Of a DNA stretch of 64,000 nucleotides, positions 24,802-37,188 are shown in pieces. The notes under the pieces are model-generated. The model ran no database searches. It had not been told where the DNA came from and worked only from the letters and a program-made list of their open reading frames with translations. The stretch is from Kineococcus rubinsiae (lineage in GTDB: Bacteria; Actinomycetota; Actinomycetes; Actinomycetales; Kineococcaceae). The DNA lies in assembly GCF_011839805.1 (NCBI RefSeq), contig NZ_VWPY01000014.1:1-64000 (forward strand), written 5' to 3'. Numbering within the stretch: position 1 is the first letter of the stretch; every line of letters starts with the position of its first letter. Made by a program: the position numbers and the translations under genes.

Positions 24802-26241
24802 TCAGGAGTCGAGGTTGGCCATCACGTGCTTGATGCGCGTGTAGTCCTCGAGGCCGTACATCGAGAGGTCCTTGCCGTAGCCGGAGCTCTTGAACCCGCC
24901 GTGCGGCATCTCGGCGACGAGCGGGATGTGGGTGTTGATCCAGACGCAGCCGAAGTCGAGGCGGCTGGACATCCGCATCGCGCGTCCGAAGTCCTTCGTC
25001 CAGACGCTGGAGGCCAGGCCGTACTCGGTGCCGTTGGCCCAGCGCACGGCCTCCTCCTCGTCGCTGAAGCGCTGCACCGTGATGACGGGCCCGAAGATCT
25101 CGTTCTGGATCGCCTCGTCGTCCTGGCGCAGGCCGGACACCACCGTCGGCTGGTAGTAGTAGCCGTCGGCCAGCTCCGCGGTGCCGCGGCCGCCGCCCGC
25201 ACCGAGGACGGCGTGGTCGGGCAGCCGGTCGACGAACCCGGAGACGTGCGCCAGCTGGCGCGCGTTGTTCACCGGTCCGAGGGCGGCGTCGGGGTCGTCG
25301 GGCAGGCCCGGCTTCGTGGCCCGCGCCTGCTCGGACAGGGCCGCGACGAAGTCGTCGTGGACCCCCGGCGCGGCGAGGACGCGGGTCGCGGCCGTGCAGT
25401 CCTGGCCCGCGTTGAAGTACCCCGCGCCGGCGATCGCCGCCGCCGCGGCCTCGACGTCCGCGTCGTCGAAGACGACGACGGGCGCCTTGCCGCCCAGCTC
25501 CAGGTGGACCCGCTTGACCTGCGCCGCAGCCGACTGCGCGACCTGCACGCCGGCCCGCACGGAACCCGTGATGGCGACGAGCTGCGGGGTCGGGTGCTCC
25601 ACGAGCGCGCGGCCCGTGTCGCGGTCGCCGCAGACGACGTTCAGCACGCCGGGCGGCAGCACCTCGTTGGCGATCTGCGCGAGCAGCACCGTCGAGGCGG
25701 GCGTCGTGTCCGAGGGCTTGAGCACGATGGTGTTGCCGGCCGCCAGGGCCGGGCCGATCTTCCAGATCGCCATCATGAGCGGGTAGTTCCAGGGCGTCAC
25801 CTGCCCGACCACGCCGATGGGCTCGCGGCGCACCCAGGAGGTGTGCCCGGCCAGGTACTCCCCTGCCGCACGGCCCTCGAGGACGCGGGCCGCCCCGGCG
25901 AAGAACCGCAGCTGGTCGACCGCCGGCGGCAGCTCCTCCGAGCGGGTCAGGGCGACCGGCTTGCCCGTGTTGCGGACCTCCGCGGCGATGAAGTCCTCGG
26001 ACCGCTCCTCGATCGCGTCGGCCAGGTCGAGCAGGAACTTCTGCCGCTCGCCCGGCGTCGTGCGGCCCCACGAGGTGAAGGCCTTCGCGGCCGCCCCGTA
26101 GGCGGCGTCGACGTCGGCGGGCCCGGACAGCGGCGCGGACGCGTACACGGTGCCGTTCGAGGGGTCCACGACGTCGGTGGTGCGGCCGTCGGCCGCGGGG
26201 ACCGCCTCGCCGCCGACGATGTTCGAGAGGGCCTGGGTCAC
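24802..26241 (-). CDS. Gamma-aminobutyraldehyde-type aldehyde dehydrogenase
   Basis: 479-aa NAD(P)-dependent aldehyde dehydrogenase. The catalytic Cys is in [15 protein letters not shown] (about residue 285) and the catalytic Glu is in [31 protein letters not shown] and IFGPVITV are family hallmarks. The GQDC-type motif and overall sequence match the aminobutyraldehyde/betaine aldehyde branch (PatD/Prr). GTG start at 26241 with GGAGGAA 4 nt upstream. It follows the copper amine oxidase gene on the same strand (26-nt gap), so it should oxidise the amino-aldehyde made by that enzyme to an amino acid such as 4-aminobutyrate. Confidence 0.88.
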
Positions 26242-26267: not shown

Positions 26268-28196
26268 TCAGTGGCAGGACGGGGTGGGACCCGCGTGCGC
26301 GGGACGCCCCGTGCGCGGCAGGTCGAGCGAGGGGTTGCGGTCGAAGAACCCCGCGGGCTTGAGCTGGAAGCTCACGACGTCCGCGGGCATCACGGGCCAG
26401 TCCTCGGGGCGGGTGACGTGGTGGATCCCGAAGACGTGCCACAGCACGACGTCGGTGCCCTCGAGCGGTTCGTCGTCGGCGATCCAGCGGGTCATGCCCG
26501 TGTCCACCTCGCTCTGGGTGGGGTGGTCGCCCGCGGGCCACAGCTCGTCGTCGTGATGGCGCGTGACCCACACGTCGTGGCCGATGACCGGCGCCCGCAG
26601 GAACTGCGGGGCGGACGGGTCGAACAGGTGCGGGATCGCGGCCGTGGACACGAGCTTGTACCCCGTCGGCGAGCCCATCGCGTTGCGGCGCTGCGTGCTC
26701 GCGACCTTCCAGCTGCGCTGGCGCTGCCAGTCGACGTCGCGGCCGGCCTCCGCCTCGGAGCGCACGGGGGTGCTCGTGGTGACGACCGCGAGGCCGTGGG
26801 GGTTCTCCGGCCCGATCGGCGCCGCGGAGGAGTCGATCTCGAAGACGGTGTTCTCCTGGCCGTCGACGTCGAGGTCGAGGCGGGCGACGAGGAAGTGCTG
26901 GTGGAACGGCGCGTAGGTGCGCTGGTCCACGAGCGTGCCGTAGGGGGGCGTCGGGGCGCCCTCGGGCAGCGGGGTCGTCACCATGATGCCGGTGGCCCGC
27001 ACCTCGCACTCGATGGTGCCGTCCTGCTGGAAGCGCCAGTAGACGAGGTACTCGTAGTTGGCGACGGTCGCGTGGAACGAGACGACCATGCGGCGCGAGC
27101 GGCGGACCTCCGCGCGGCCGTTCGCGTCCACGTGCTTCCACAGGACCGCGTCGTCCTCCTCGTGCAGGCAGATCGCGTTGGTGATGGTGTACGGCTCCCC
27201 GTGGGAGTCGGTGAGGACGGCGTCGAGGTAGCGGATCTCCCCGAGGCAGTCGCAGCCCAGCTCCAGCGACGTCGTCATGTACCCCAGGCCCCACTCGCCG
27301 ATGTCGTAGGCGGTGCGGCGGCGGTGCTCGAACCCCGGGTCGCGGTAGGGCACGATCATCTCCGCGAAGGACATCCGGTAGGCGATCTCGCGCTCGGTGC
27401 CGGCGTCGTCGTAGCGGACCTGGTGCAGCACGAGGCCCTCGCGGTAGGTGAACCCGATCCGCATCGACCAGTTCTGCCAGCGCAGCTCCCCGTCGCCGTC
27501 GATCGTGAACGAGGGCCCGTCCGGCTGCGAGACGTCGAGGGCACGCAGGCCCTCGCGCGGCGTGAACTCCGGCACGAGCTCGGGCTCGTACTCCCCCATC
27601 ACCGGCGCGGGTGGGGCGATCTCGTCCGCGACGTCGATCTCCAGCAGCTCGAACGTGTTCATGTCGACGACGAGCTTCAGCCCGTGCACGGGGTGGGCGT
27701 AGGGGTTGCCGTGCGGCGTGGCCCGGTGCCAGACGTCGCACCAGCCGAGCCGGCGGTCGCGGTACTGCTCCGGCATGACGCCGTGGCCGTACGTCCAGAC
27801 GTCGATGAGCACGAGGTCCAGGTCCGTCAGCCCGCGCTCGGCGAGCGCCGCGACGACGCGGGGCTCGGCCTTCAGCGCGACCTCGCACTCGTGCCACTCG
27901 TCGACCGTGAAGTTCGGGGTGACGCCGGGGACGTGCTCGAACGCCAGCACCTGCGCCGCCACGAGGTCGACCAGCACCTCGTAGGCCCGGTTGTCGCTGC
28001 GGTCCCAAAGGACGGACTTCGCGCGGCGCGGCACCGCGTCCCCCGGCGTCCACGCCAGCACGTCCGCCTTGGGCGGCTCCGCCAGGACGACGGAGGCGAA
28101 GCGCATGCTCGGCGCGAGCCGCCCCGAGGACCGCAGGACCTCGACGTTCAGCGCGAACTCGTCGGTGCGCAGCGGGATCAGCGGGTGGGACGGCAC
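26268..28196 (-). CDS. Copper-containing primary-amine oxidase
   Basis: 642-aa copper amine oxidase (EC 1.4.3.21), which oxidises primary amines to aldehydes with release of ammonia and H2O2. The topaquinone precursor tyrosine is seen in [11 protein letters not shown] at residue 381, nearly the same position as in the Arthrobacter globiformis enzyme. The catalytic-base Asp is probably in [10 protein letters not shown]. Copper histidines are in [12 protein letters not shown] and in the C-terminal [16 protein letters not shown] chose GTG at 28196 with GGAGG about 10 nt upstream; a longer frame exists but is not protein-like. It is divergent from the APC permease and followed by the aldehyde dehydrogenase, forming a two-step amine oxidation unit. 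Confidence 0.93.
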
Positions 28197-28269
28197 AGCG
28201 GGGACACCTCCAGGTGGGGCACGGGCGGCCAGTGTGACCCCCAGCCGTCGCGGGGGCAAGGACGCGCGC

Positions 28270-28317
28270 GCGGATCCGTCGTCCGAGGGGTGATCCACGA
28301 CGGGATCCGTCGCTCGG
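28270..28317. promoter_or_regulatory. Candidate Lrp-type motif, two direct copies
   Basis: GCGGATCCGTCGTCCGAGG starts at 28270 and GGATCCGTCGCTCGG at 28303, 31 bp apart (about three helical turns). The first 15 nt match 20760-20774 exactly in reverse complement. The pair lies between the divergent amine oxidase and APC permease genes, so both could be controlled by the Lrp-family protein at 20230. Confidence 0.55.
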
Positions 28318-28380: not shown

Positions 28381-29934
28381 ATGGCAGCGACCCCACCTCC
28401 CGGACCCGTCTCCCGCCCGGAACCCGCGGCGGCCCCGCCGGGGGGCAAGGGCCTGCAGCCCGGCGCCCTGGGCCTGTGGGGGAACACCGTCATCGGTCTC
28501 GGCGCCACCGCCCCGGCGTACAGCCTCGCGGCCACCCTCGGGTACGTGGTGCTGGCGGTGCACGACAAGGCGCCCGCCATGTTCCTCGTCGCGTTCGTGC
28601 CCATGCTGCTGGTGGCCATCGCCTACCGGGAGCTGAACCGCGCGGCCCCGGACTGCGGGACGACGTTCACGTGGGGCACCAAGGCGTTCGGCCCGTGGGT
28701 GGGCTGGATGGGCGGCTGGGGCGTCGCCGTCTCCGCCATCATCGTGCTCGCCAACGTCGCGGAGATCGCCGCGATCTACTCGCTGCGCTTCCTGGGCCTG
28801 GACGGCCTGGCCGAGCAGCCGGTCGTGCGCGTCACCCTCGGCATCGCGTTCATCATCGGGATGACCTGGGTCAGCTACCGGGGCATCCAGATCTCCGAGC
28901 GCATCCAGAACGTCCTCATCCTGCTGCAGTTCGCGGTGCTGGCGATCATCTCGGTCGGCGCGCTCTGGCTGGTCGCGCGCGGGGAGGCCGGCCCGCAGGC
29001 CGTGACGCCGACGTGGGACTGGTTCTCCCCCTTCGGGGTCAGCGCGTCGGCGCTGGCGGAGGCGGTCATCCTCTGCATCTTCATCTACTGGGGCTGGGAC
29101 GCCTGCCTCGCGGTCTCCGAGGAGACCCGCGACTCCGACACGACCCCCGGCCGGGCCGCCCTGCTGGCCACCGTGATCCTCGTCGTCACCTACGTCCTCG
29201 TCGCGGTCGCCGTGCAGGCGTACGCGGGGTTCGGGACGACGGGCATCGGCCTGGGCAACGAGGAGAACGCCGACGACGTCCTGACGCTGCTGGGCGACCC
29301 GGTGGGCGGTGCGGTGCTGTCGTTCCTGCTGCTGCTCACCGTCGCCGTGTCCGCGGCCGCCTCGACTCAGACGACGATCCTGCCGACCGCGCGCGGGGCG
29401 CTGGCCATGGCCGTCTACGGCGCGGTGCCGCAGCGGTTCGCGACCGTCCACCCGCGCTTCCGCACGCCGTCGTTCGCGACGGCCGTCATGGGCGTCGCGG
29501 CCGTGGGGTTCTACCTCGTGCTGACGCTGGTCAGCCAGAACGCGCTGCAGGACTCGATCGCCTCGCTCGGCCTCGCCGTCGCGTTCTACTACGGCATCAC
29601 GGCGTTCGCGTGCGTCTGGTACTTCCGGTCCTCGCTGCGCACCTCCGTGCGCCACCTGCTGCTGCGCGGCGTCCTGCCCCTGCTGGGCGGCCTCGCCATG
29701 CTGTGGGCGTTCGTGCAGAGCGCGATCGACATGGCCGCGAAGGACTACGGCTACACGGTGTTCGGCCCGCTCGGCGGGGTCTTCGTCATCGGCGTCGGCA
29801 TGATCGTGCTGGGGATCCCGCTGATGCTGCTGTGCGCCCGCCGCCTCACGGACTTCTTCGCCGGGCGGACGCTGCGCGCGGACACCCCGATCCTCGTGCC
29901 CGACACGGGGCAGCCGCCCATCGGCGGGCTCTGA
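28381..29934 (+). CDS. APC superfamily amino acid/amine permease
   Basis: 517-aa membrane transporter with about 12 helices. The first helix has the APC pattern NTVIGLGATAPAYSLAATL, and GTTFTWGTKAFGPWVGWMGG and TFIYWGWDACLAVSEETRD-like segments (IFIYWGWDACLAVSEET) are typical of the family. It has an ATG start after a GGAGCATC ribosome site. It is divergent from the amine oxidase/aldehyde dehydrogenase pair, so its cargo is probably the primary amine or a related amino acid. Its stop is 12 nt from the first copy of the duplicated nagA end. Confidence 0.9.
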   Translation: MAATPPPGPVSRPEPAAAPPGGKGLQPGALGLWGNTVIGLGATAPAYSLAATLGYVVLAVHDKAPAMFLVAFVPMLLVAIAYRELNRAAPDCGTTFTWGTKAFGPWVGWMGGWGVAVSAIIVLANVAEIAAIYSLRFLGLDGLAEQPVVRVTLGIAFIIGMTWVSYRGIQISERIQNVLILLQFAVLAIISVGALWLVARGEAGPQAVTPTWDWFSPFGVSASALAEAVILCIFIYWGWDACLAVSEETRDSDTTPGRAALLATVILVVTYVLVAVAVQAYAGFGTTGIGLGNEENADDVLTLLGDPVGGAVLSFLLLLTVAVSAAASTQTTILPTARGALAMAVYGAVPQRFATVHPRFRTPSFATAVMGVAAVGFYLVLTLVSQNALQDSIASLGLAVAFYYGITAFACVWYFRSSLRTSVRHLLLRGVLPLLGGLAMLWAFVQSAIDMAAKDYGYTVFGPLGGVFVIGVGMIVLGIPLMLLCARRLTDFFAGRTLRADTPILVPDTGQPPIGGL

Positions 29935-29945
29935 GGACCCCCCGG

Positions 29946-30108
29946 GTCAGGCGAGGACGCGCAGCACCCGCAGCTCCGGGCCGAGCAGCACCGCCCCCCC
30001 CCGGTGGCACCGGGTTCGAGGTGGCCCCGGCCGGCGCGGCCGAGCAGGCCGGCGGGCACGGACGTGGCGGCCGCCAGGGCGTCGTCGAGGTCCAGCCCCG
30101 CCTCGTGC
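29946..30108 (-). pseudogene. Remnant of nagA 3' end (direct repeat copy A)
   Basis: This 163-bp stretch is a near copy of the last 161 bp around the end of the intact nagA (36048-36208). I count three substitutions and one 2-nt insertion in a C-tract (nine C here, seven in nagA), which shifts the frame. It would encode the NagA C-terminus in reverse (AGLDLDDALAAATSVPAGLL then frameshift) but has no start or upstream part, so it is dead. Together with copy B it brackets the 5.9 kb cassette. Confidence 0.88.
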
Positions 30109-30130
30109 CCCGCCACCTAGGCTGGCGGGG
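30108..30130. promoter_or_regulatory. Hairpin/palindrome at left cassette junction
   Basis: A perfect 8-bp stem CCCCGCCA/TGGCGGGG encloses the 7-nt loop CCTAGGC. It begins on the last base of repeat copy A and ends 46 nt before the alcohol dehydrogenase start. It may be an operator, a terminator protecting the cassette from upstream transcription, or a trace of the insertion. Confidence 0.45.
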
Positions 30131-30176
30131 ACCGCGGCTCAGCACCGGCCGGCCGCGCGGACCAGGAGGAGGAGCG

Positions 30177-31301
30177 GTGGGACGGTCGCTGACGATCCGC
30201 GGGGCGGTGCTGGAGGACGTCGGACGAGCGCGCCCCTTCGCGCGCTCGCGTCCCGTGACGATCAGCGAGCTCGACCTCGACCCACCGGGTCCCGGGGAGG
30301 TCCTGGTGCGCATCGAGGCGGCAGGCGTGTGCCACTCGGACCTGTCGGTCGTCGACGGCAACCGGGTGCGCCCGGTGCCGATGCTGCTGGGGCACGAGGC
30401 CGCGGGGCTCGTCGAGGCGCTCGGCCCCGGGGTCGAGGACCTGGAGCCCGGTCAGCGGGTCGTCATGACGTTCCTGCCGCGCTGCGGGCGCTGTGCGGGC
30501 TGCCGCACCGAGGGCAAGCTGCCGTGCGGACCGGGGAGCGTGGCCAACGGGGCCGGCGACCTGCTGGGTGGGGGGGTGCGGCTGCGGCGCGACGGGCAGC
30601 CCGTCAAGCACCACCTGGGGATCTCCGCCTTCGCCACCCACGCCGTGGTGGACCGGCGCTCGATCGTGCCGGTCGAGGCGGACGTGCCGCCGGCGGTCGC
30701 CGCGCTGCTGGGCTGCGCGGTGCTCACCGGCGGCGGGGCGGTGCTCAACGCGGGCCGGCCGCAGGAAGGGGACGACGTGGTCGTGGTCGGCCTGGGCGGG
30801 GTCGGCATGGCGGCAGTGATGACCGCAGCCTCGCTGGGGACGGGCCGCGTCGTCGGCGTCGACACGGTGCCGGCCAAGCTGACCGCCGCCCGCGCCGCGG
30901 GCGCCTCGCAGGCCCTGACGCCGCAGCAGGCGCTGGAGCAGGGACTGCGGGCACCCGTCGTGGTCGAGGCGGCCGGCAACGTGCGCGCCTTCGAGACGGC
31001 CGTGCAGCTGACGGCACCCGGCGGCACCACGGTCACGGTCGGCCTCCCCGCACCCGGCGCACGTGCGCAGGTGGCGCCCCTGGGGTTGACGGCCGAGGCG
31101 CGCACCATCGTCGGGAGCTACCTGGGGTCGGCGGTGCCCGCACGCGACATCCCCACCTACGTGCGGCTGTGGCGGGAGGGCCGGCTACCGGTGGAGCAGC
31201 TGGTCTCGGCGACCATCGGGCTGGAGGACCTCAACGAGGCGATGGACACGCTCGCCGACGGCCTCGCCGTGCGCCAGCTCGTCGTCCCGGTACCCGGCTG
31301 A
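30177..31301 (+). CDS. Zinc-dependent alcohol dehydrogenase (MDR family)
   Basis: 374-aa medium-chain dehydrogenase. Catalytic zinc ligands are visible as Cys in GVCHSDLSVVDG and His-Glu in MLLGHEAAGLVEALG. The structural-zinc cysteines cluster in PRCGRCAGCRTEGKLPC. The NAD-binding motif VVVGLGGVGMAAVMTAA lies near residue 205, with the Asp of VVGVDTVPAK suggesting NAD+ preference. GTG start at 30177 with a strong AGGAGGAGGAG ribosome site. It is the first gene of the inserted cassette and probably oxidises or reduces an alcohol in the same pathway as the HisD-like protein. Confidence 0.9.
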   Translation: MGRSLTIRGAVLEDVGRARPFARSRPVTISELDLDPPGPGEVLVRIEAAGVCHSDLSVVDGNRVRPVPMLLGHEAAGLVEALGPGVEDLEPGQRVVMTFLPRCGRCAGCRTEGKLPCGPGSVANGAGDLLGGGVRLRRDGQPVKHHLGISAFATHAVVDRRSIVPVEADVPPAVAALLGCAVLTGGGAVLNAGRPQEGDDVVVVGLGGVGMAAVMTAASLGTGRVVGVDTVPAKLTAARAAGASQALTPQQALEQGLRAPVVVEAAGNVRAFETAVQLTAPGGTTVTVGLPAPGARAQVAPLGLTAEARTIVGSYLGSAVPARDIPTYVRLWREGRLPVEQLVSATIGLEDLNEAMDTLADGLAVRQLVVPVPG

Positions 31302-31358
31302 ACCCGGTTCGACTCCCTGCGCCGCAACCCACCACCCAGGTCCGAAGGAGCGACACGC

Positions 31359-32375
31359 ATGGCCCGGCGACCGCTCGTCTCCAGCGTCCAGATCGCGCGG
31401 GAGGCGGGAGTGGCGCAGTCGACGGTCTCGCGCGTCCTCAACGGCGGCAGCGTCGCCCCGGAGACCCGGCGCCGAGTGCTGGAGGTCCTGGCCAAGCACG
31501 ACTTCCAGCCGAACCTCGCGGCGAGGTCGCTGGTCGCCGCCCGCAGCGGCCTGGTCGGGGTCGTCATCCGCGACCTCACCAACCCCTTCTACCCGATCAT
31601 GGTGCGGGCCGTGGAGCGCGTGCTGCACGAGCAGGGACTGCGCCTGCTCCTGCTCAGCGACGTGGCGACACCTCAGGAGAGCCTCGCGATGCTGCGCCGG
31701 GAACGGGTCGACGGAGTGGTGTTCAGCTCCGCCGTGCGCGACGACCCGCTGGCATGGCCGGTCAGCGACCACGGGATCCCCGTCGTGCTGTGCCACCGCA
31801 CCATCGAGGGTTTCCCCGGCGACCAGGTGGAGGCCGACAACACCACCGCGGGAAGGCTCGCCGCCGACCACCTGCTCGACCTGGGGCACCAGCGCATCGC
31901 GATGGTGTGCGGGACCGTGCTGGCGAGCACGGCCGAGCAGCGCGCGGCCGGTTTCCGGGCCCGGCTGGCCGAGCGGGCGCCGCGGGCGGAGCTCGTCGAG
32001 GTGCAAGGCGGCTACGACTACGCCGCCAGCTACGCCGCGGTGCGCGAGCTGCTGGCCGGCCCGCAGCGCCCGAGCGCGCTCTTCTGCCACAACGACGTGA
32101 TGGCGCACGCGGCGCTCAACGCCGCCGCCGCCGAGGGCGTCGACGTCCCGGGCCGGCTGAGCGTCGTCGGGTGCGACGACGCGCCGGCCTCCGCCTGGGA
32201 GCGCATCCAGCTCACGACGGTCCGCCAGCCGCTGAGCCGGATCGCCGAGGTGGCGGCTCGTCTGCTCCTGGAGCGGCTGCAGGTCCCGGACTCGCCGCTG
32301 CGCCACGAGGTGCTGCCGGTGGACCTGGTGCTGCGCACCACCACGGCGCCGTGGAACGGCGATCCGACCGGCTGA
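31359..32375 (+). CDS. LacI family transcriptional regulator of the cassette
   Basis: 338-aa LacI/GalR regulator. Helix-turn-helix VQIAREAGVAQSTVSRVLNGG, hinge NLAARSLVAARSGLVGVVIRD and effector domain with RLSVVGCDDAPASAWERIQL and TTVRQPL are all in place. ATG start with GGAG ribosome site. It sits between the alcohol dehydrogenase and the HisD-like gene. A perfect 16-bp palindrome lies 70 nt after its stop, upstream of the HisD-like gene, and is its probable operator. Confidence 0.92.
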   Translation: MARRPLVSSVQIAREAGVAQSTVSRVLNGGSVAPETRRRVLEVLAKHDFQPNLAARSLVAARSGLVGVVIRDLTNPFYPIMVRAVERVLHEQGLRLLLLSDVATPQESLAMLRRERVDGVVFSSAVRDDPLAWPVSDHGIPVVLCHRTIEGFPGDQVEADNTTAGRLAADHLLDLGHQRIAMVCGTVLASTAEQRAAGFRARLAERAPRAELVEVQGGYDYAASYAAVRELLAGPQRPSALFCHNDVMAHAALNAAAAEGVDVPGRLSVVGCDDAPASAWERIQLTTVRQPLSRIAEVAARLLLERLQVPDSPLRHEVLPVDLVLRTTTAPWNGDPTG

Positions 32376-32444
32376 GTCCGCGAGCGGCGCACCCGACGCC
32401 AGGGGTTGACGGGTCCGCCACCTGCCCCTTCCTTCGCACCACTG

Positions 32445-32460
32445 TTGGATACGTATCCAA
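32445..32460. promoter_or_regulatory. Perfect palindromic operator upstream of HisD-like gene
   Basis: TTGGATACGTATCCAA is fully self-complementary over 16 bp with the central CG typical of LacI-family sites. It lies 50 nt before the ATG at 32511. A TTGACG at 32406-32411 may be the -35 box; no clear -10 was identified. The adjacent LacI-type protein is the likely binder. Confidence 0.65.
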
Positions 32461-32510
32461 GATGGACGACGCACCAGCCGGAACGCCAGACGACTCGCGA
32501 TGGAGCTGAG

Positions 32511-33830
32511 ATGTCCCACCCCCTCAAGACGGCCACGTCCACCTCGACCTCGTTCGCCGGCAACGACGCGATCGCCGACACGGTGCGTGGCATCGTGGCC
32601 GACGTGCGCGAGCGCGGCGACGCCGCCGTGCGCGAGCTCTCCGCCCGCTTCGACCGGTGGGAGCCCGCCTCCTTCCGCCTCGACGAGCAGCAGGTGCAGG
32701 AGATCATCGCCTCGCTGCCGCAGCAGGTCATCGACGACATCACGACCGTGCAGGCCAACGTCCGCCGCTTCGCCGAGGCGCAGCGGGCGTCCCTGACCGA
32801 CATCGAGGTCGAGACCGAGCCAGGGGTCTTCCTCGGTCACCGCCACCTGCCCATCGCGGCGGTGGGCGCCTACATCCCTGGTGGCCGCTACCCGCTCACC
32901 GCCTCGGCTCACATGACCATCGTGACGGCCAAGGTCGCCGGTGTGCCGCGCGTCGTCGCCTGCACGCCCCCGATCCGCGGCGAGATCCCCGCCGCGACGA
33001 TCGCCGCGATGCACTTCGCCGGCGCCGACGAGATCCACGTCCTGGGCGGGGTGCAGGCGGTCGCCGCCATGGCCATCGGCACCGAGAGCATGGCGCGCGT
33101 CGACATGCTCGCCGGCCCCGGCAACGCCTACGTCGCGGAAGCCAAGCGGCAGCTCTTCGGCGAGGTCGGCATCGACCTGTTCGCCGGGCCCACCGAGGTT
33201 CTCGTAGTGGCCGACGAAGCGGCCGACCCGTTCGTGGTGGCCGTCGACCTCCTCTCCCAGGCGGAGCACGGCCCCGACTCCCCCGCCGTCCTCATCACCA
33301 CCAGCGAGGACGTCGGCCGCCGGGTCCTCGCGCACGTCGAGGAGATCCTGCCGGGCATGCCCACAGGCGACATCGCCGGCCCGGCCTGGCGCGACCACGG
33401 CCAGGTCATCGTCGCCGACGACCTCGACGAGGCGTACCGCATCGCCGACGACTTCGCGTTCGAGCACGTGCAGATCCTCACCGCCGAGCCCCGGCTGGCA
33501 CTGGACAAGATGCACGCCTACGGCGCCCTCTTCCTGGGCGAGGGGACCTGTGTCTCTTACGGCGACAAGGTGATCGGGACGAATCACGTCCTGCCCACCC
33601 GCGGCGCCGCCCGCTACACCGGTGGCCTGTGGGTCGGCAAGTACCTGCGCACCGTCACCTACCAGGAGGTGCGCGACACCGACGCCTCGGCCCGGCTGGG
33701 GACCCTGTGCGGGCGCGCCGCGCGCGTGGAGCTGTTCGAGGGCCACGCCCGTTCCGGCGACGTGCGCGCCGCCAAGTACGCCGGCGCCCCGCTGCCCTGG
33801 AGCGACCACTTCCAGAGCACCTCCGCCTGA
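32511..33830 (+). CDS. Histidinol dehydrogenase family protein, probable sulfopropanediol 3-dehydrogenase-like
   Basis: 439-aa NAD-dependent, zinc-containing four-electron dehydrogenase fold of HisD. The zinc and catalytic residues are present: Gln and His in LLSQAEHGPDS, the Glu-His pair in DFAFEHVQIL, Asp and His in SYGDKVIGTNHVLPT, and a C-terminal His in FEGHARSGD. The context is catabolic (LacI, MFS, SDR, alcohol dehydrogenase) with no his genes, so it is unlikely to serve histidine synthesis. HisD homologues in such loci include HpsN, which oxidises 2,3-dihydroxypropane-1-sulfonate to sulfolactate. That role is plausible here but not proven; no sulfolactate lyase is in the window. The ATG at 32511 gives a family-like N-terminus; a longer frame starts inside the operator. 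Confidence 0.8.
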   Translation: MSHPLKTATSTSTSFAGNDAIADTVRGIVADVRERGDAAVRELSARFDRWEPASFRLDEQQVQEIIASLPQQVIDDITTVQANVRRFAEAQRASLTDIEVETEPGVFLGHRHLPIAAVGAYIPGGRYPLTASAHMTIVTAKVAGVPRVVACTPPIRGEIPAATIAAMHFAGADEIHVLGGVQAVAAMAIGTESMARVDMLAGPGNAYVAEAKRQLFGEVGIDLFAGPTEVLVVADEAADPFVVAVDLLSQAEHGPDSPAVLITTSEDVGRRVLAHVEEILPGMPTGDIAGPAWRDHGQVIVADDLDEAYRIADDFAFEHVQILTAEPRLALDKMHAYGALFLGEGTCVSYGDKVIGTNHVLPTRGAARYTGGLWVGKYLRTVTYQEVRDTDASARLGTLCGRAARVELFEGHARSGDVRAAKYAGAPLPWSDHFQSTSA

Positions 33831-33873
33831 GAAGACCCCCTCCCCCTCCCCCACCGATCGACGGAGATCCGCG

Positions 33874-35238
33874 ATGGAGAAGTCCGCTCTCACCCCCCAG
33901 CAAGTGCGCCGCCGGTCCCTGCAGTCGGGCACCATCGGCGCGATCGTCGAGTGGTACGAGTACACGATCTACGGCACGGCCGCCGCGCTGGTGTTCGGCT
34001 CGGTGTTCTTCCCCAACCTCTCCGGGGCGGTGGGTCAGATCGTGTCACTGGCCTCCTTCGGCGTCGGGTTCCTGGCCCGCCCGCTGGGTGCGGTGATCGC
34101 CGGTCACCTCGGCGACCGCATCGGGCGCAAGTCGACGCTGATCCTCACCTTCTCGGTGATGACCGTCGCGACCGCCGCGATCGGCCTGATGCCCACCTAC
34201 GGGCAGATCGGCGTGGCGGCTCCGCTGCTGCTGTGCGTGCTGCGTCTGACCCAGGGCTTCGCCGTCGGCGGTGAGTGGGGTGGGGCCGCGATCATCGCGG
34301 TCGAGAACGCGCCGCGCCGCCGGCGCGGTTACTTCGGTTCGTGGCCGCAGATCGGCGTCTCCGCCGGGCTGCTGCTGGGAACCGCCGCGATGTCGCTGTC
34401 GGCGTGGATCTCGGGGGACGCCTTCGAGACCTGGGGCTGGCGGCTGCCGTTCCTGATGGCGATCGCGCTGGCCGTCGTCGGCCTCGTGATCCGCCTGCGC
34501 GCCAGCGAGAGCGAGGCGTTCCTGGTGGAGAAGGCGAAGATGGACGCCGAGATGGAGGAGCGCAAGGCACCCGCCGTCGTGCTGTTCCGCGAGCACAAGA
34601 AGCCTCTGCTCATCGCGATCTTCGGCCGTTTCGCCGAGGCCGGGAACTACTACCTGTTCACCACCTTCGTCCTCTCCTACGTGACGACGACCCTCGGCGC
34701 CCCGCGCAGCTACGGCCTCACCGCCTCGATGGTCGGCGCGGCCGCCAACATCGCCCTGATCCCCGTCTTCGGCAAGCTGTCGGACCGCATCGGACGCCCC
34801 AGGACGTTCCTCATCGGGGCGGGGATCATCGTGGTCACCACCTGGCCGGTGTTCGCGCTCGTGCAGACCGGAGAGCTCTGGGCCGTCGTCCTCGGCGTCG
34901 TGGTGTTCATGGCGCTGGGGCACGCCATGGTCTACGCCCCCCTGCCGGCGCTCTACTGCGAGATGTTCCCCACGGCCGTGCGCTACTCCGGGATCTCCAT
35001 CGGTTACCAGATGGCCTCGATCCTGCTGGCCAGCTTCGCCCCCGCCCTGGCGGCCTCGCTCGTGCTATGGACCGACGGGAGCCTGTGGGCGGTCATCGTC
35101 TTCTCCATCGCCTGCACCCTGGTGGCGATCGTCGCGATCTCCTTCGCCCCCGACCGGCGGCACCTGGAGCTGGACGAGATCGACGTGGTGGCCGTACCGG
35201 GTGAGCCCAGCACCTCGTCGCTGCGCGGAACGCGGTGA
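33874..35238 (+). CDS. MFS metabolite:H+ symporter
   Basis: 454-aa carrier of the MHS branch (ProP/ShiA/KgtP-like). Landmarks are GAIVEWYEYTIYGTAAALVFG at helix 1, GHLGDRIGRKSTLI in the 2-3 loop, RLTQGFAVGGEWGGAAIIAVEN and the late MFPTAVRYSGISIGYQ. ATG start with GGAG 6 nt upstream. It lies between the HisD-like gene and the SDR and overlaps the latter by 4 nt. It should import the small organic acid, polyol or sulfonate that the cassette degrades. Confidence 0.9.
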   Translation: MEKSALTPQQVRRRSLQSGTIGAIVEWYEYTIYGTAAALVFGSVFFPNLSGAVGQIVSLASFGVGFLARPLGAVIAGHLGDRIGRKSTLILTFSVMTVATAAIGLMPTYGQIGVAAPLLLCVLRLTQGFAVGGEWGGAAIIAVENAPRRRRGYFGSWPQIGVSAGLLLGTAAMSLSAWISGDAFETWGWRLPFLMAIALAVVGLVIRLRASESEAFLVEKAKMDAEMEERKAPAVVLFREHKKPLLIAIFGRFAEAGNYYLFTTFVLSYVTTTLGAPRSYGLTASMVGAAANIALIPVFGKLSDRIGRPRTFLIGAGIIVVTTWPVFALVQTGELWAVVLGVVVFMALGHAMVYAPLPALYCEMFPTAVRYSGISIGYQMASILLASFAPALAASLVLWTDGSLWAVIVFSIACTLVAIVAISFAPDRRHLELDEIDVVAVPGEPSTSSLRGTR

Positions 35239-36008
35239 GGGCCCCCGACGAGGTCGTCGGCGGACGCACCGCCCTGGTCACCGGGGCCGGAAACGGGCTG
35301 GGGCGGGCCATCGCGCTCGCTCTGGCCGGCCATGGCGCCCGCGTGGTCCTGGTGGGCCGCAGCGAAGCCCCGCTGGGGGAGACCGCCGCGATGATCGGGC
35401 CCACGGCGCGGGTGGCGACCTGCGACGTCTCCGACCCCGCCTCGGTGGAGGCCCTCGCGGTACACCTGGCCGGGGAGTCGATCTCCATCCTGGTCAACAA
35501 CGCCGGCATCGCCGGTCCGGTCGCCGACCTCACGGCCGTGCAGCCGCACGAGTGGGACGAGGTCTTCGCCGTGAACGTCCGCGGGACCTACCTGGTGTGC
35601 CGGGCGTTCCTGCCGCCGATGCTGCAGCGGGGTTCCGGTGACGTGGTGAACATCGCCTCCGTCAGCGGGAAGCGCCCCCTGCCGGGACGCACGCCGTACA
35701 CCGCCTCCAAGATGGCGGTGCTGGGCCTGACGACCACGCTGGCCCACGAGGTCGGCCCGGGTGGCGTCATGGTGAACTCCGTCTCCCCCGGCCCCGTCGC
35801 TGGGCCGCGGATGGACCGCAACTTCGCCCGGGAGGCGGAGCGCACCGGGACGAGCCCGGCGCAGGCGGAAGAGGAGTTCGTCTCCCGCGCCGCGCTGCGG
35901 CGCATGGTCACCGCCGAGGAGGTGGCCACGGCCACCGTCGCGGTGCTGTGCGTTCCGGGCCTGTGCGGCGCTGACGTCGACCTCTCGGCGGGCATGATCG
36001 CCCGCTGA
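35235..36008 (+). CDS. SDR family oxidoreductase of the cassette
   Basis: 257-aa classical short-chain dehydrogenase. The NAD(P) motif TGAGNGLGRAIALALAG is at residues 17-33. NNAGIAGPV, the catalytic Ser in NIASVSGKRPLPG and the YTASKMAV motif (Tyr-x-x-x-Lys) are intact, and VNSVSPGPVAGPR follows. GTG start overlapping the MFS stop (GTGA). It is the last gene of the cassette, ending 40 nt before nagA copy B. It probably interconverts a hydroxyl and keto group on the same substrate as the HisD-like and zinc dehydrogenases. Confidence 0.9.
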   Translation: MRAPDEVVGGRTALVTGAGNGLGRAIALALAGHGARVVLVGRSEAPLGETAAMIGPTARVATCDVSDPASVEALAVHLAGESISILVNNAGIAGPVADLTAVQPHEWDEVFAVNVRGTYLVCRAFLPPMLQRGSGDVVNIASVSGKRPLPGRTPYTASKMAVLGLTTTLAHEVGPGGVMVNSVSPGPVAGPRMDRNFAREAERTGTSPAQAEEEFVSRAALRRMVTAEEVATATVAVLCVPGLCGADVDLSAGMIAR

Positions 36009-36048
36009 GGGCCGGACCGCCCGTCGTCCCGGCGGGTGGCCTCGAGCG

Positions 36049-37188
36049 TCAGGCGAGGACGCGCAGCACCCGCAGCTCCGCGTCGAGCAGCACCGCCCCC
36101 CCGGTGGCACCGGGTTCGAGGTGGCCCCGGTCGGCGCGGCCGAGCAGGCCGGCGGGCACGGACGTGGCGGCCGCCAGGGCGTCGTCGAGGTCCAGCCCCG
36201 CCTCGTGCACGGCGAAGGCCAGGGCCCGGTCCATCGTCAGGGTGCTGCCGGCGATGGAACCCCCGGGGGCCAGGCGGGCCGTCCCGCCGCGCACCTCGAC
36301 GTGCAGGTCCCCGAGCAGGTAGTCCCCGTCCGCCCCGCCGGCCGCGGCCATCGCGTCGGTGACCAGGGCCGTGCGCCGCGGCCCGGCGCTGTGCGCGGCG
36401 TGCGCGACGGTGAGCGGGTGCAGGTGGACGCCGTCGGCGATGAGCTCGACGACGACGCGCTCGTCCTCCAGCAGCGCGACGACCGGGCCCGGGGCGCGGT
36501 GGTGCACGGGGGGCATGGCGTTGAACAGGTGGGTGGCCAGGCGCGCACCCGCGTCGACCGCCGCGCGCGCGAGCTCGGCGTCGGCGTCGGTGTGCCCGAT
36601 CGCCGCGACCGCGCCGGAGCCCGCGACCCGCCGCACGGCGTCGAGGCCGCCGGGCAGCTCAGGGGCCAGCGTGACGACGCGGACGGCGCCGCCGCCCGCC
36701 CGCAGCAGGTCCTCGACGTCGGCGGGCGCCGGGGGCTGCAGCAGCGCCGGGTCGTGCGCCCCGCGATGCAGCGGGCTCAGCCAGGGACCCTCGAGGTGGA
36801 CGCCGGCGAGCACCCCGTCGCCGACGAGGTCCGCGAGCGCCGCCACCGTCTCGCGCAGCTCCGCGGGCGGGCGGCTGACGAGGCTCGCCACGAGCGTCGT
36901 CGTGCCGTGGGCGCGGTGGGTGGCCGCGACGGTGCGGGCCGAGCGGACGGCGGCCTCCCCCGTCCCGCCGAACTGCTCGCCGCCCCCGCCGTGGCAGTGC
37001 AGGTCGACGAAGCCGGGCACGACGGTGGCGCCGCTCGCGTCGACGACCTCGGCGGCCGCGCGGTCCGGCGCCGGCGCGGCCCCCTCGCCGAGCGCGGTGA
37101 CGACCCCGTCGCGCAGCAGGACCCAGCCGTCGGTCAGGACGCGGCGACCGGTGCGGACCGTGCCGTGCTCGACCAGGACGGTCGTCAC
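36049..37188 (-). CDS. nagA: N-acetylglucosamine-6-phosphate deacetylase
   Basis: 379-aa metal-dependent amidohydrolase (EC 3.5.1.25) that removes acetate from GlcNAc-6-P or GalNAc-6-P. Motifs are VDLHCHGGGGEQFGGT (HxH), GVHLEGPWLSP (metal Glu), AIGHTDADAE, ATHLFNAMPPVHH and ALVTDAMAAAG (catalytic Asp). GTG start at 37188 overlapping the SIS gene stop (GTGA), so NagA and the deaminase are co-translated. Its last 53 codons are duplicated at 29946-30108. Confidence 0.93.
   Translation of the reverse strand: MTTVLVEHGTVRTGRRVLTDGWVLLRDGVVTALGEGAAPAPDRAAAEVVDASGATVVPGFVDLHCHGGGGEQFGGTGEAAVRSARTVAATHRAHGTTTLVASLVSRPPAELRETVAALADLVGDGVLAGVHLEGPWLSPLHRGAHDPALLQPPAPADVEDLLRAGGGAVRVVTLAPELPGGLDAVRRVAGSGAVAAIGHTDADAELARAAVDAGARLATHLFNAMPPVHHRAPGPVVALLEDERVVVELIADGVHLHPLTVAHAAHSAGPRRTALVTDAMAAAGGADGDYLLGDLHVEVRGGTARLAPGGSIAGSTLTMDRALAFAVHEAGLDLDDALAAATSVPAGLLGRADRGHLEPGATGGAVLLDAELRVLRVLA

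Follow-up and report, generated by a model that had tools for sequence, protein, structure and literature searches.

A five-gene cassette between duplicated nagA 3′ ends in Kineococcus rubinsiae

We analysed a window of 64,000 nucleotides (nt) from Kineococcus rubinsiae (the whole stretch of DNA under study; positions 1 to 64,000 of contig NZ_VWPY01000014.1, assembly GCF_011839805.1), in which a cassette of five genes lies between two copies of the 3′ end of nagA, the gene for N-acetylglucosamine-6-phosphate deacetylase. The left host flank is a gene for an APC-family amino acid permease (28381..29934, + strand; PF13520, 103 bits), which is followed by a detached nagA end, the cassette, and a second nagA end that continues into the body of nagA. 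The nagA gene itself (36049..37188, − strand) encodes 379 amino acids in an intact frame (TIGR00221, 238 bits against a cut-off of 226). The insert between the repeats comprises 5,939 bases (30109-36047), and all five of its genes are on the + strand. It is very probable that this arrangement arose through insertion of the cassette with duplication of the nagA end.

The two repeats, copy A next to the permease gene (29946..30108, 163 nt) and copy B at the working end of nagA (36048..36208, 161 nt), are in direct orientation and 97% identical. They differ at three substituted positions, and copy A carries an inserted 2 nt in a C tract; the longest exact run common to both is 77 nt, ending at 30108 and 36208, respectively. 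The initial annotation had described such a near-identical pair, and its coordinates, orientation and count of differences all agree with ours. It had also taken copy B for the true nagA end and copy A for a headless, frameshifted remnant behind the permease gene, and this reading holds. Copy B, which starts one base past the nagA stop codon, covers codons 327-379 plus the stop within the intact frame; copy A has no nagA sequence upstream of it and its frame is shifted by the 2-nt insertion. When copy A and its flanks (29930-30140) were searched against the strain's own genome, copy B was recovered at E=1e-72 and the next best of the 11 places listed was 77 bases at 77% identity (E=2e-5), so that the match between the two copies far exceeds what chance would give. 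When 453.5 kb of the 4.88-Mb genome (9%; contig C25 whole and parts of C1 and C2) were compared with themselves, no other pair of 60 nt or more reached 85% identity. Given that the genome is a draft of 119 contigs, one might suppose that the cassette had been wrongly joined to a nagA end during assembly. We regard such an artefact as very unlikely, as the two copies can be told apart, share no exact run beyond 77 nt and each have a unique context, both joins are far inside a 73.5-kb contig (C25), and the most plausible reading places the changes in the unselected copy A alone (see below).

To place the locus in its genus, we compared 11 Kineococcus genomes, one per species and including that of K. 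rubinsiae; they are labelled G001 and so on where a label is needed, and K. radiotolerans SRS30216 is G005, recognised by a 12,917-base contig with 100% identity to a plasmid of that strain. In all 10 of the other genomes, nagA and a close orthologue of the permease gene are convergent and adjacent, with 10, 22, 30, 34, 40, 77, 95, 127, 412 and 549 nt between them (measured from one aligned coding part to the other, with the stop codons counted in), and nowhere is this gap wide enough to hold the cassette. Since all 10 relatives have the two genes tail to tail, the ancestral junction had no cassette, and the ancestor that had been postulated at the outset, with an uninterrupted junction of permease gene and nagA, is thereby borne out. 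The two widest junctions, those of G006 (549 nt) and G007 (412 nt), have no evident second nagA end, and the gap in G006 has an apparent small reading frame, as judged by eye; to judge by these gaps, the junction seems to be tolerant of insertions. The 77-nt gap in G010 consists mostly of a perfect 64-nt palindrome (G010:C697:8908-8971), an arm of which, with up to two mismatches, occurs at two more places in G010 and at none in the 10 other genomes of the genus.

The cassette begins with a zinc-dependent alcohol dehydrogenase (ADH; 30177..31301, +, 374 amino acids; PF08240, PF00107), which is 93% identical in amino acids to its counterpart in K. radiotolerans. It is followed by a LacI-family regulator (31359..32375, +, 338 amino acids; PF00356, PF13377), a histidinol-dehydrogenase-like (HisD-like) enzyme (32511..33830, +, 439 amino acids; PF00815, 459 bits), an MFS transporter of the metabolite/H+ symporter type (33874..35238, +, 454 amino acids; PF07690, and TIGR00883 at 400 bits, below the cut-off of 443), and a short-chain dehydrogenase/reductase (SDR; 35235..36008, +, 257 amino acids; PF00106, PF13561), the GTG start of which overlaps the stop codon of the transporter gene. 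The ADH was compared with Pfam profiles, and the other four proteins with those of both Pfam and NCBIfam. The remaining 39 nt at the right edge of the insert (36009..36047) cannot be aligned to K. radiotolerans. These five co-oriented genes, with a LacI-family gene among them, correspond to the LacI-regulated cassette that had been proposed to lie between the repeats. Upstream of the HisD-like gene is a perfect palindrome, TTGGATACGTATCCAA (32445..32460), whose core, GGATACGTATCC, is kept in all three copies of the cassette that cover the site (K. rubinsiae, K. radiotolerans and G010); this candidate is likely to be the operator of the cassette's own LacI regulator.

The cassette had also been expected to occur elsewhere with other flanks, and it does. 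A complete, collinear copy is present in K. radiotolerans (C2:4507772-4513829), where BLAST matched it as two segments, at 89% and 86% DNA identity, and where it is located at 4.51 Mb, away from nagA at 1.51 Mb on the same chromosome. This is the sole other complete copy seen, and no direct repeats were found to bracket it within 19.9 kb at E<=1e-3. Beyond its right end, at a distance of 1.5 kb, is a DDE_5 transposase split over two frames (L089 4523-5762, −), which we take to be IS701-like, and directly behind the cassette are tandem units of ~15 nt, GGGCAGTCGATCAGC (L089 6981-7109), recognised by eye. In G010, the ADH, LacI and HisD-like genes are on a 3.5-kb contig, both ends of which are inside the cassette. 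On the G003 contig, we found a relative of the SDR (80% amino-acid identity) and none of the other four cassette genes.

We then looked beyond the genus. A DNA query of 31359-36008 found matches at E<=1e-200 in 17 of 396 genomes of the order, an undercount in view of that limit and because each genome among those shown was scored at one or two candidate places. K. rubinsiae and K. radiotolerans matched nearly the whole query, G010 matched the LacI and HisD-like part, and the other 14 matched the HisD-like part. Under laxer limits, G001, G006 and G009, which are among these, also have an SDR gene beside the HisD-like gene (72-73% DNA identity). A protein search of named genomes with the HisD-like enzyme confirmed 132 relatives, and we compared the neighbourhoods of 80 of these using eight query proteins. 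The best 18 loci (L095-L112) include two from Streptomyces with LacI, HisD-like and MFS genes (73-81% amino-acid identity), 12 with HisD-like and SDR genes, and four with the HisD-like gene alone; none of the other 62 (L113-L174, scored at that threshold only) matched at least four of the eight proteins. When the region 29900-36250 was searched by BLAST, 476 of 72,556 plasmid records and 6 of 50,697 phage records matched. None covered 80% of the query, and a phage or plasmid origin of the cassette was rejected on that basis; the largest cover among the 20 plasmid and 6 phage matches listed was 20%, by the HisD-like and LacI genes of a Deinococcus plasmid. Neither the cassette nor the junction is named among the papers listed by our literature searches, which included one aimed at Kineococcus with 10 of its 47 papers listed.

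The HisD-like enzyme clears the NCBIfam cut-off for hisD (TIGR00069, 445 against 244 bits). Its nearest solved structures are sulfopropanediol 3-dehydrogenases (8v35, E=3.8e-108, 365 bits), and its best match to a histidinol dehydrogenase structure scores 259 bits. The best solved relative is HpsN, the dihydroxypropanesulfonate (DHPS) 3-dehydrogenase, which is reported to have the motif GRY(A/S)H with a zinc- and sulfonate-binding histidine, where HisD homologues have GSAPL (PMC11382572). The cassette enzyme has neither: its motif is GRYPL, as it also is in the K. radiotolerans and G010 copies, in the two Streptomyces loci (L095 and L096) and in L104 and L109; in this pattern scan, five of 11 loci had no match. 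We rejected DHPS as the substrate on the grounds that the diagnostic histidine of HpsN is missing. The cassette is likely to oxidise an imported polyol or a hydroxy acid in an NAD-linked reaction, under the control of its LacI regulator. On the host side of the locus, the permease gene is near a copper amine oxidase gene (26268-28298, −; NF008559, 865 bits against a cut-off of 651) and an aldehyde-dehydrogenase-like frame (24802-26200, −; by eye), and the three together look like a cluster for amine use.

Several features make it most likely that the cassette is an operon acquired by horizontal transfer and has moved within Kineococcus. Between K. rubinsiae and K. radiotolerans, identity at fourfold-degenerate sites is 0.65-0.72 for the five cassette genes, 0.557 for the permease gene and 0.586 for nagA; between K. 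rubinsiae and G010, it is 0.68-0.71 for the three shared cassette genes, 0.609 for the permease gene and 0.555 for nagA. The five cassette genes have a GC content of 0.936-0.957 at third codon positions; for six neighbours, the range is 0.972-0.986. It is these two measures, taken together with the other location in K. radiotolerans and the absence of the cassette from the junctions of the relatives, that argue for movement within the genus.

The differences between the two repeats give the event a direction and a relative age. At the four positions at which copies A and B differ, the state of copy B is shared by 9, 8, 10 and 10 of the 10 relatives, respectively, and at the second of them the two relatives that do not agree with copy B carry a third base. 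On the most plausible reading, copy A acquired the differences by decay after the event, which also upholds the earlier suggestion that the cassette arrived together with the duplication of the nagA end. If the changes fell on copy A after the event, the copies would have been identical, or nearly so, when they were formed, and the duplicated DNA would have been the recipient's own or that of a conspecific. NagA of the nearest relative, G007, is 80% identical in amino acids to that of K. rubinsiae. Because there are only three substitutions in 161 sites, the insertion is recent relative to the split from G007.

We also compared the joints with the K. radiotolerans copy. On the left, homology to the K. 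radiotolerans cassette extends to 30101, and the 8-nt sequence CCTCGTGC (30101..30108), which nagA shares with the flank of the K. radiotolerans cassette, is a candidate for microhomology at the left joint (p 0.0016 when the flank was resampled 5,000 times under a Markov model; p 0.005 in 20,000 random places of real DNA). On the right, homology to K. radiotolerans ends at the stop codon of the SDR gene, and local alignment of the 39-nt right edge to K. radiotolerans is no better than that of resampled sequence (p 0.93). We think it somewhat probable that the cassette was joined by illegitimate recombination, through microhomology or Ku-type end joining, at two offset points. A catabolic operon mobile within Kineococcus would have entered the short convergent junction of permease gene and nagA in an ancestor of the strain, as linear foreign DNA whose two joints with the nagA end were separated by 161 bp. 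The two joinings may have fallen on sister copies, or may have arisen by template switching, and the 161 bp between the joints would thus have been retained on both sides of the insert. The stop codon and frame of nagA would have been kept because the right-hand copy remained attached to the body of the gene, and the left-hand copy would be debris that has been decaying since. Such joining would be a single event that uses recipient DNA, and it fits both the near-identical copies and a contig without tyrosine or serine recombinases. With regard to end joining, our survey covered Ku alone, which is encoded in the K. rubinsiae genome and in 7 of the 11 Kineococcus genomes (K. rubinsiae included).

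A number of points weigh against this account. At the first difference between the two repeats, it is the state of copy A that G007 carries. The silent-site excess in the cassette is modest, with the sites near saturation, since even G007, the nearest relative, gives only 0.585 (permease gene) and 0.640 (nagA), and the core-gene side of that comparison consists of these two genes. The overall GC content of the cassette, 0.730, is not unusual next to 0.735 on its left side and 0.767 on its right. The left microhomology was noticed post hoc and is 1 nt (K. radiotolerans) or 3 nt (K. rubinsiae) from the homologous block, and on the right the beginning of the repeat bears a weak resemblance to the K. 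radiotolerans flank (11 of 16, p 0.046). The outer flanks of the cassette are seen in only one other copy, so that the flanks of the donor are deduced from that single relative. Finally, integration by a single crossover gives the same duplication as its standard product, as has been observed in an E. coli experiment (PMC3240628).

Integration of a circle is a close rival, and the mechanism stands between two ordinary routes. A circle bearing the cassette and a nagA 3′ end would integrate by one RecA-dependent crossover in nagA (a Campbell-type event), which would yield exactly the observed geometry, a host segment directly duplicated around foreign DNA. In the E. coli study, 56 of 60 Lac− clones gave the polymerase chain reaction product diagnostic of partial duplication of the homologous locus, the duplications in 14 sequenced clones measured 109-950 bp, a range into which 161 bp falls, and the authors attributed them to a single crossover by a circle whose homology had been partly lost (PMC3240628). 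However, NagA proteins of the other species are 71-80% identical in amino acids to that of K. rubinsiae, and copies A and B show no difference that requires a donor, so that this species' own nagA end must have been on the circle beforehand. This presupposes an earlier joining step that is equally unexplained, and the complete cassette in K. radiotolerans does not adjoin nagA. We regard the circle as less probable than the joining of linear DNA.

There are well-known elements that insert at the 3′ ends of genes and supply a duplicate by which the end is restored, and site-specific integration at the end of nagA, by an integrase whose gene was later lost or was supplied in trans, has to be considered as well. 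A direct repeat of the nagA end is found at both borders, with its start just beyond the stop codon, and the genome has tyrosine and serine recombinases on other contigs. However, none of its 11 PF00589 and 5 PF00239 places is on contig C25, in keeping with the lack of an integrase noted initially, and none of the five cassette genes encodes such a recombinase. In addition, K. radiotolerans carries its complete cassette at a different place, where no repeats bracket it within 19.9 kb, and an attachment core of 161 bp would be a long one. We accordingly judge site-specific entry to be improbable. Neither of the two routes offered in the initial annotation is thus established: the site-specific one is disfavoured by the lack of a tyrosine or serine recombinase on the contig and by the lack of bracketing repeats in K. 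radiotolerans, and the circle needs a donor with this species' own nagA end. Two further candidates were rejected, namely insertion of a transposon or insertion sequence, as there is no transposase among the five genes and the repeats are 161-163 nt of host nagA sequence, and a tRNA target, as there is no tRNA within the window.

The locus resembles several known systems in part. Integrase-driven genomic islands insert beside the end of a gene, which is duplicated and leaves the gene intact; the position, the duplicated end and the intact gene are the same here, but no integrase was found and the repeat is much longer than the usual core. In transformable bacteria, homology-facilitated and double illegitimate recombination attach a foreign segment where homology is short or absent and no recombinase takes part, as proposed for our locus. 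Deletion of recipient DNA is the usual outcome there, whereas here 161 bp are duplicated; the E. coli report also gives deletion as the expected outcome of illegitimate recombination (PMC3240628). As at our locus, the Campbell integration of recircularised linear DNA in that report leaves foreign DNA between two direct copies of part of a host gene; the E. coli donor, however, was built with lacZ homology, and no nagA-homologous donor is known in the present case. Merodiploids of Streptococcus pneumoniae formed in transformation by interchromatid integration offer a further likeness, in that a duplication results when donor DNA pairs with sister chromosomes at two positions offset from each other, but there long repeats guide the pairing and ~107-936 kb are duplicated (PMC3784515).

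We conclude that the event is real and of a fairly ordinary kind, and that the locus by itself reveals no new mechanism. We give little credence to the more far-reaching idea that the junction of permease gene and nagA is a landing site for foreign operons, which would enter without a recombinase and with duplication of the recipient's gene end and, as integrase-free mobile cassettes, would leave again and pass from strain to strain by RecA alone. The locus is nevertheless a clean and fairly recent natural case in which an operon without a mobility gene would have entered a chromosome whilst the frame of the target gene stayed intact. The pair of repeats, one copy of which appears to be decaying, dates the event relative to speciation, and it predicts that the cassette should be excisable by ordinary RecA-dependent recombination.

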